Origin: Chryseobacterium camelliae
GTDB lineage: Bacteria > Bacteroidota > Bacteroidia > Flavobacteriales > Weeksellaceae
NCBI RefSeq assembly: GCF_002770595.1
Contig: NZ_CP022986.1
Location: forward strand, 4,092,001 to 4,156,000
Length of the DNA: 64,000 nt
Direction: 5' to 3'
The notes beneath the pieces are model-generated. The model was not told the DNA's origin, ran no database searches, and saw only the letters and a list, made by a program, of their open reading frames with translations. Positions 41,288 through 42,915 of this stretch are shown here, in pieces. The translations under genes were made by a program, and so were the position numbers. The stretch's first letter is position 1, and each line of letters starts with the position of its first letter.

Positions 41288-42709
41288 TCAGTCTGCTATT
41301 TTCTCTGCTTTTTCCACTGCTTTTTTCAGGGCATTCAGCTTATTATTGACTTCCTGCAGTTCATTTTCAGGTACCGAGTGGGCGACAAGGCCTGCTCCTG
41401 CCTGATAATATAGGGTGTTGTTTTTACTCAGGAACGTCCTGATCATGATGGCCTGGTTGCAGGTTCCGTTCAGTCCGATCATCCCGATACAGCCTCCGTA
41501 GTATCCCCTGGAATCTTTTTCATACGCATCAATCAGCTGAAGGGCTTTGTGTTTCGGTGCACCGCTTAAAGTTCCCTGGGGAAAGGTAGCCGATACCATT
41601 TCGAAAGGCTGGATGCCGGCCGGAAGATCGGCTGTTACTTCGCTTACCATATGAATCACGTGGGAAAAGAGCTGGATCTCTTTCAGTTTCGTTACCGTAA
41701 CATTGTTTCCCAGTTTCCCCAGGTCGTTTCTGGCCAGGTCCACCAGCATCGTATGTTCTGCGTTTTCTTTCGGATCTTTTTTTAAGGTTTCAATAGCCTT
41801 CAGGTCAGTGTCCAGATGGCCCGTCCTTTTGAATGTCCCGGCAATCGGGTGGATTACAGCCTGGTTATTTTTGATGATGAGCTGGCTTTCCGGGCTGGAA
41901 CCGAACAGTTTGTAATTGCCATAGTCGAAGAAAAAGAGGTAAGGAGAGGGGTTGATGTTCCGCAATGCGCGGTACACATTGAATTCATCACCGGTAAACT
42001 TCTGCTGAAACCTCCTGCTGAGTACCAGCTGGAATACATCGCCCCTCATGCAGTGCTTCTGGGCCGTTTTTACCAGTGCGATATATTCTTCATCGGTAAG
42101 GTTGGACGTTTCCGAACCGGATTTCCCGAAAGGATAAATCACCGGATTCCTGTTCTTGATCAGGCTTTCAAGGTGATAGAGCTCGGAGCGAACGCCTTCA
42201 ATGCGGTTTTCAATAAAATGCATTTCATCATTGTAATGATTGATCGCAATCACATACTGGTAAAGGCGGTACCTGAGCAGCGGGATCTCCACTTCCGGGC
42301 TCTGTGCTTTAAAGGTGACTTTTTCAAAAAGCTGTACCGCATCAAAACTGGTATACCCGAACACGCTCTGTGCGGTTTCCTCTACTGCGTCTTTTGCCTT
42401 TTCACATTCAAAAATCTGGCAGAAATCCCTGAAAATATCGGTTACCGAATGTCCTTCCAGCGGCTGTTTTACCGGTTCTTCCAGCGGGAGTTTTACCTCA
42501 AATTCTTTCAGCGACCTGATCTCTATTCCGGCAATGGCATTGATGCCGATATACGAGAAATTGTGCTCTGCATTCCTGGAATCCGAACTTTCCAGCAGTA
42601 CCGTATCCCTGAAATGGTCCCTTACCTGAAGGTAAATGTTCATGGGAGTCTGCAGGTCTCCGAGTGTTTTTTTTGAAACGGTTTTTATTTTGATTTTTTT
42701 GTGGAACAT
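41288..42709 (-). CDS. trpE: Anthranilate synthase component I
   Basis: 473 residues. The feedback site motif LLES (38-41) is present, so tryptophan inhibition is expected. The chorismate-binding core shows LFGSSPESQLI, IAGTFKRTGH, and TFPQGTLSGAPKHKAL. It makes anthranilate from chorismate with ammonia from TrpG. It is the first structural gene of the operon; its ATG lies 24 nt beyond the attenuator terminator at 42734-42767, so its expression depends on read-through. Confidence 0.96.
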   Translation of the reverse strand: MFHKKIKIKTVSKKTLGDLQTPMNIYLQVRDHFRDTVLLESSDSRNAEHNFSYIGINAIAGIEIRSLKEFEVKLPLEEPVKQPLEGHSVTDIFRDFCQIFECEKAKDAVEETAQSVFGYTSFDAVQLFEKVTFKAQSPEVEIPLLRYRLYQYVIAINHYNDEMHFIENRIEGVRSELYHLESLIKNRNPVIYPFGKSGSETSNLTDEEYIALVKTAQKHCMRGDVFQLVLSRRFQQKFTGDEFNVYRALRNINPSPYLFFFDYGNYKLFGSSPESQLIIKNNQAVIHPIAGTFKRTGHLDTDLKAIETLKKDPKENAEHTMLVDLARNDLGKLGNNVTVTKLKEIQLFSHVIHMVSEVTADLPAGIQPFEMVSATFPQGTLSGAPKHKALQLIDAYEKDSRGYYGGCIGMIGLNGTCNQAIMIRTFLSKNNTLYYQAGAGLVAHSVPENELQEVNNKLNALKKAVEKAEKIAD

Positions 42710-42733: not shown

Positions 42734-42767
42734 AAAAAAAAGACTTCAACGGTATCCGTCAAAGTCT
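42734..42767 (-). terminator. trp attenuator terminator
   Basis: On the minus strand, AGACTTTGACGG and CCGTTGAAGTCT make a 12-bp stem (two G-U pairs) with an ATA loop, followed directly by eight T residues. It stands between the Trp-rich leader peptide gene and trpE. Its 5' arm (42757-42767) can instead pair with the leader segment at 42820-42829. Confidence 0.88.
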
Positions 42768-42797
42768 CTATATGCTAAATATTATTTTTGTCTTGCG

Positions 42798-42875
42798 TTA
42801 ACAACATAACAATACTTCCAGACCCGACGAAGAGTTTGAAAGCCACCACCAGTTATTGTTGCTGATCTGATTCAT
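42798..42875 (-). CDS. trpL: Trp operon leader peptide (25 residues, Trp-Trp-Trp)
   Basis: A 25-codon open frame ATG to TAA. It begins M-N-Q-I-S-N-N-N and then has three consecutive TGG codons (9-11, at 42843-42851), ending V-L-L-C-C. Tryptophan is normally the rarest residue, so three in a row directly upstream of a trp operon and an intrinsic terminator identify a ribosome-sensing leader. The ATG lies only 4 nt from the -7 element, so the transcript is nearly leaderless. The peptide itself probably has no function beyond translation. Confidence 0.85.
   Translation of the reverse strand: MNQISNNNWWWLSNSSSGLEVLLCC
42820..42829 (-). promoter_or_regulatory. Antiterminator segment of the trp attenuator
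   Basis: On the minus strand CGTCGGGTCT, in leader codons 16-19, can form 10 pairs (two G-U, one bulged T) with the 5' arm of the terminator, AGACTTTGACG. A ribosome stalled at the Trp codons would leave this segment free and thereby prevent the terminator. Confidence 0.6.
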
Positions 42876-42879
42876 GAGA

Positions 42880-42915
42880 CAAAAGTAAATATTTTTTTGA
42901 TATGAAATACAAAAA
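42880..42915 (-). promoter_or_regulatory. trp operon promoter
   Basis: On the minus strand TTTTTG (42910-42915), 22 nt, TACTTTTG (42880-42887), an exact TAnnTTTG. The expected start falls within 0-2 nt of the leader-peptide ATG. Confidence 0.65.

Follow-up and report, generated by a model that had tools for sequence, protein, structure and literature searches.

The closest described counterparts of the device treated here are two attenuators that precede trpE and a set of candidate attenuators in a flavobacterium. In trpL of E. coli and other enterobacteria, a short ORF with tandem Trp codons, the mutually exclusive helices 1:2, 2:3 and 3:4 and a terminator lie before trpE, and all of these are shared by the locus upstream of trpE in the window (the whole stretch of 64,000 nucleotides that was analysed). 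The main differences from E. coli trpL are that the leader in the window has no match to an Rfam model, probably has a leaderless start, has a longer 2:3 loop and is located in a genome without TrpR. The trpLE(G) attenuator of Sinorhizobium meliloti (rnTrpL/peTrpL) is also alike in its tandem Trp codons and its attenuation without repression, and its leaderless ORF starting at the ATG resembles the start predicted here; it belongs to a different phylum, differs in sequence and has a leader of 14 codons (PMC7298713). A survey of 2010 knew classical leader-peptide attenuation from two phyla only, the Proteobacteria and the Actinobacteria (PMC2965389), and in 2021 ‘strong clues’ for such attenuation upstream of amino-acid biosynthesis operons were reported for Flavobacterium psychrophilum (PMC9723704), whose candidate attenuators are from the same phylum as the window. 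Tryptophan is not mentioned in the main text of that paper, nor are a leader sequence, covariation or a distribution given there (PMC9723704), and most of the Flavobacteriaceae leaders sampled here differ from the present one in that their 5′ stretch is longer and their antiterminator is not the same. By the sequence features tested, the device in the window is an attenuator of the ribosome-mediated trpL class, and we hold with high confidence that the locus is best explained by ribosome-mediated transcription attenuation of the trp operon. The mechanism is textbook and was previously suspected in Flavobacterium; the distribution, the architecture and the predicted leaderless start appear to be new, with an earlier description in Merino 2008 or Lopatovskaya 2010 being possible.

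The trp leader and its promoter box

The attenuator at 42734–42915 is confirmed as an observation. The initial annotation had described a minus-strand leader of 25 codons with Trp-Trp-Trp at codons 9–11 and trpE downstream of it, and direct reading bears out this leader and places the trpE start at 42709. The features, all on the minus strand, are as follows.

42887–42880, minus strand: Bacteroidota sigma-A −7 box TACTTTTG (TAnnTTTG), read directly, adjoining the start codon
ATG 42875 to TAA 42798, minus strand: leader peptide ORF of 25 codons, MNQISNNNWWWLSNSSSGLEVLLCC followed by the stop, from direct reading and homologous leaders
42851–42843, minus strand: three tandem Trp codons TGG TGG TGG (codons 9–11), putative stall site, invariant in relatives
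42842–42815, minus strand: anti-antiterminator hairpin (1:2) in the minimum-energy fold, arms 42842–42832 and 42825–42815, 6-nt loop, one A·C mismatch
42831–42820, minus strand: antiterminator segment (region 2) UUCGUCGGGUCU, forming a duplex with the terminator 5′ arm
42812–42801, minus strand: leader tail codons LLCC (LSCC in most Chryseobacterium), with mostly synonymous change
42768–42756, minus strand: terminator 5′ arm (region 3) GAGACTTTGACGG, common to antiterminator and terminator
42752–42740, minus strand: terminator 3′ arm (region 4) CCGTTGAAGTCTT, separated from the 5′ arm by the loop ATA
42741–42734, minus strand: run of eight T, read directly, overlapping the terminator 3′ arm
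42709–41288, minus strand: trpE, anthranilate synthase component I, first structural gene (NCBIfam best match TIGR00564 trpE_most, E 5e-119, below the curated cut-off)
41221–35223, minus strand: trpG/pabA, trpD, trpC, trpF, trpB, trpA and lipB, in this order after trpE, from NCBIfam matches

The products TrpG, TrpD, TrpC, TrpB, TrpA and LipB each pass the curated cut-off, and TrpF was assigned by best matches only. The genus of the window (g1; genome of 4.38 Mb) was taken as Chryseobacterium, as its closest named relatives are all Chryseobacterium. A homologous leader is present at every locus of two Chryseobacterium samples, one of 72 loci and one of 80 named loci; the WWW codons are invariant in both samples and the N-terminal codons drift freely, and the start codon is GTG at one of the 80 loci (L202). 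The RNA of the leader in the window folds more stably than its own shuffles (z = −2.8).

Moreover, right next to the start codon there is a promoter box, which was absent from the initial annotation. Box and start codon are separated by 4 nt in 71 of the 72 Chryseobacterium leaders and by 4–5 nt in 39 of the 44 other leaders of the family in which a box was found, and outside the family a longer gap, or no recognised box, is more frequent. In F. psychrophilum the TAnnTTTG box occupies positions −12 to −5 when counted from the transcription start (PMC9723704). Taken together with the spacing in the window, this predicts +1 at 42875, the A of the leader ATG, or at the base before. The constancy of the 4-nt spacing (71/72 loci) suggests that the leader mRNA of Chryseobacterium is probably leaderless or nearly so. 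Elsewhere in the phylum, leaderless mRNAs are uncommon: they make up 5.5% in F. psychrophilum (PMC9723704), and 5′ UTRs shorter than 10 nt account for about 3.7% in B. thetaiotaomicron. Patterns for His and Ile leaders with the same promoter box were also searched for in the window's own genome, where the two hits examined precede no amino-acid operons.

Three mutually exclusive helices

An intrinsic terminator with a hairpin energy of −15.4 kcal/mol lies between the leader ORF and the first structural gene; its eight T residues, which the initial annotation had pointed out, are seen in the sequence, and a terminator was located in 153 of 159 leader loci. The same annotation had taken 42829–42820 to be complementary to the terminator 5′ arm, and this holds, the pairing in fact reaching 42831: the duplex between the antiterminator and the terminator 5′ arm has 12 bp with one bulge and an energy of −13.6 kcal/mol. 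A long loop separates regions 2 and 3, which counts against attenuation. In the window by itself the duplex is modestly better than shuffles (p = 0.045), so that the weight rests on conservation and covariation. When the segment after the Trp codons was paired with the terminator 5′ arm of the same leader in 46 taxa, the mean energy was −11.75 kcal/mol versus −8.4 for swapped partners, and the sum of the cognate pairings was reached in none of 20,000 permutations, by which shared ancestry and base composition are only partly controlled. The duplex beats shuffles of its own leader at p < 0.05 in 25 of the 46 taxa, and cognate pairing is also found in distant genera, such as GATTCGTCGGTGCT with AGCTCTGATGAATC in g29 and GATTTATCGGTGTC with GACCTCGATAAATC in g19. 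The comparison of cognate and swapped partners thus gives evolutionary support to an antiterminator (2:3) that is mutually exclusive with the terminator. In the duplex test, the same simple antiterminator pairing was not seen in the Flavobacteriaceae or in the genera g8, g10, g21 and g28.

The 1:2 hairpin, which sequesters the antiterminator segment, is the part missing from the initial annotation. It begins directly after the third Trp codon, its 3′ arm includes GGGUCU of the antiterminator, and its shape of 4 + 4 bp flanking a 1×1 mismatch is kept among relatives. Standard pairs occupy 304 of 328 cells in 41 distinct hairpins, while the permutations gave a mean of 224 and a maximum of 254; this level was met by none of 5,000 permutations, in which ancestry is partly controlled and the location of the hairpins by their pairing introduces a bias toward paired cells. 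All three mutually exclusive helices are, by these comparisons of sequences, conserved and covarying across the relatives. The check among related genomes that the initial annotation had proposed for the leader, the WWW codons and the hairpins therefore came out in its favour, with invariant WWW codons and covarying alternative helices.

Occlusion folding, with a ribosome footprint from −13 to +15 of the P site, was used to follow these helices. A ribosome whose A site holds a Trp codon shortens or abolishes 1:2, so that covariation and occlusion folds both support a 1:2 hairpin whose 5′ arm is covered by a ribosome at the Trp codons. With this stalled ribosome, 2:3 is the optimum from the emergence of the terminator 5′ arm until the 3′ arm is nearly complete; in free RNA, 2:3 is also a transient optimum before the terminator is completed. 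At full length the optimum is 1:2 together with 3:4, both for free RNA and for a ribosome at the stop codon, and even when the ribosome is stalled the terminator stays the more stable fold. Since the terminator is favoured at full length despite the stalled ribosome, the antitermination step would have to be kinetic in this model.

In 69 of 72 Chryseobacterium the stop codon follows the last Trp codon at a distance of 45 nt, downstream of region 2; in many other genera the distance is 24–30 nt, which puts the stop inside region 2 or at it, like that of E. coli. This E. coli placement, in which the terminating ribosome covers region 2 and which does not define the class, is thus found in many other genera and not in Chryseobacterium. 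The initial annotation had asked how a ribosome that only partly covers the antiterminator at the leader stop could mask it, and the difficulty is real, as the stop lies beyond region 2 and the ribosome there fails to cover the segment. It is resolved by the 1:2 hairpin, which forms in the occlusion fold with a ribosome at the stop and so accounts for the switching off of the antiterminator in Chryseobacterium: once the leader has been read through, the segment is masked by this hairpin rather than by the terminating ribosome.

For the working of the device we infer the following stalling response and stalling kinetics. RNA polymerase would initiate at the leader ATG, or one to two bases from it, and a ribosome would translate the leaderless, or nearly leaderless, ORF. 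When charged tRNA-Trp is scarce, the ribosome would stall at WWW with its footprint over the 5′ arm of 1:2, the free antiterminator segment would pair with the emerging terminator 5′ arm, and the polymerase would proceed into trpE. When Trp is plentiful, the ribosome would reach the stop codon, 1:2 would re-form behind it, the terminator would fold and transcription would stop before trpE.

Distribution among the Bacteroidota

The regions upstream of trpE were collected from the family of the window (132 regions, with 72 leaders of its genus) and from other families of the order or class (40 regions), and a leader was defined as an ATG ORF of 8–35 codons containing WW. Such a leader is present at 125 of the 132 family loci and 29 of the 40 class loci, and one with WWW at 119 and 24 of them, respectively; control rates for WW leaders were 0.5% (family) and 0 (class) in dinucleotide shuffles and 0 on the antisense strand. 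All 80 named Chryseobacterium loci carry the leader. Among the apparent exceptions in the collection, locus L135 is masked (N). One family member, G127 (locus L134), has no Trp leader directly upstream of trpE, which might reflect loss or an operon rearrangement. In the leaders L104, L265, L272 and L278, WWW is replaced by WCW or WLW, and a strong terminator is present in L104, L272 and L278.

Furthermore, genus g17 and one class member have operons in which trpB comes first, ahead of trpE, and there leader and terminator are situated upstream of trpB; at the three loci concerned, L324, L325 and L326, a WW(W) leader and a terminator precede trpB rather than trpE. The leader is thus seen to stay with the head of the operon in these sequences. 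In the other classes of Bacteroidota, Trp-rich leaders precede trpE in 9 of 9 loci. These leaders from outside the class (L315–L323) are longer and of a somewhat different style, with single and tandem Trp codons (for example FAWAWWW). As far as sequences tell, the covarying trp attenuator can be followed across the window's family, and every Bacteroidota group sampled has Trp-rich leaders of like layout. The reading of the locus as trp attenuation, put forward in the initial annotation, is supported by the invariant WWW, the covarying helices, the terminator kept among relatives and the leader at the operon head even where trpB comes first.

Leader tail, other explanations and significance

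The last codons of the leader evolve in a different manner from the first ones. Codon changes were mapped on a trpE tree of 80 Chryseobacterium (loci L136–L215), where the Trp codons show zero changes, the structure codons +1 to +8 show 12 changes in all, and the bases past the leader stop drift (14:150). The tail codons +11 to +14, which are situated outside the three regulatory helices, have 24 synonymous versus 13 non-synonymous changes, whereas for the N-terminal codons the counts are 16 and 95 (Fisher p = 1e-8). The tail therefore looks conserved as a peptide, and a function at the peptide level is possible. Pairing of the tail with the linker before the terminator, as a cause of this conservation, gave a weak signal (730 of 20,000 permutations). 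A small hairpin spanning the leader stop codon (for example TGCTAA...TAGCA) recurs in many Chryseobacterium leaders (L018, L020, L026 and others), and it might pause polymerase or ribosome.

It could be assumed from this substitution pattern that the leader transcript or peptide acts mainly in trans, as rnTrpL/peTrpL of S. meliloti do, and that attenuation is one output only. Trans action is documented for the RNA and the peptide of that leaderless trp attenuator (PMC7298713), whereas for the present leader it is only possible: other genera have a different tail, wobble pairing within the stop-adjacent hairpin may account for part of the synonymous pattern, and the leader has no known target. 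We consider a main action in trans unlikely. Similarly doubtful is the idea that the conserved LSCC tail gives the leader peptide a second function, as a trans-acting peptide, by a nascent-chain effect or as a second sensor through its Cys/Ser codons, on top of an attenuator that would be phylum-wide and, in the family, leaderless.

A partial terminator that acts constitutively beside an ORF present by chance, setting a fixed low transcription of trpE, would agree with the complete leader being most stable when folded into the terminator; this reading is very improbable, as the ORF, the WWW codons and the two competing helices are conserved and covarying. Control by a protein or tRNA sensor, with the short ORF being incidental, is familiar from TrpR, TRAP and T-box-type systems of trp genes in E. 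coli and Bacillus, and is largely refuted here and the least credible of all, as the WWW codons are invariant, neither TrpR (Trp_repressor, PF01371) nor TRAP (TrpBP, PF02081) was found in the genome of the window while the positive controls matched, and the Rfam scan of the window gave no family at the gathering threshold, T-box included, and only chance matches, with no amino-acid leader family, up to E = 10.

Ribosome-mediated attenuation of the trp operon has several consequences in this form. If the start codon lies at or beside the first base, the loading of the ribosome would be tied directly to transcription initiation, and the leaderless start, if true, would provide a clean test of leaderless translation in Bacteroidota. 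In annotation, a new RNA family could be set up for the leader. Beyond the two phyla of the 2010 view and the clues from flavobacteria in 2021, the predicted range of trp attenuation is extended by the covarying helices found here across the family of the window.
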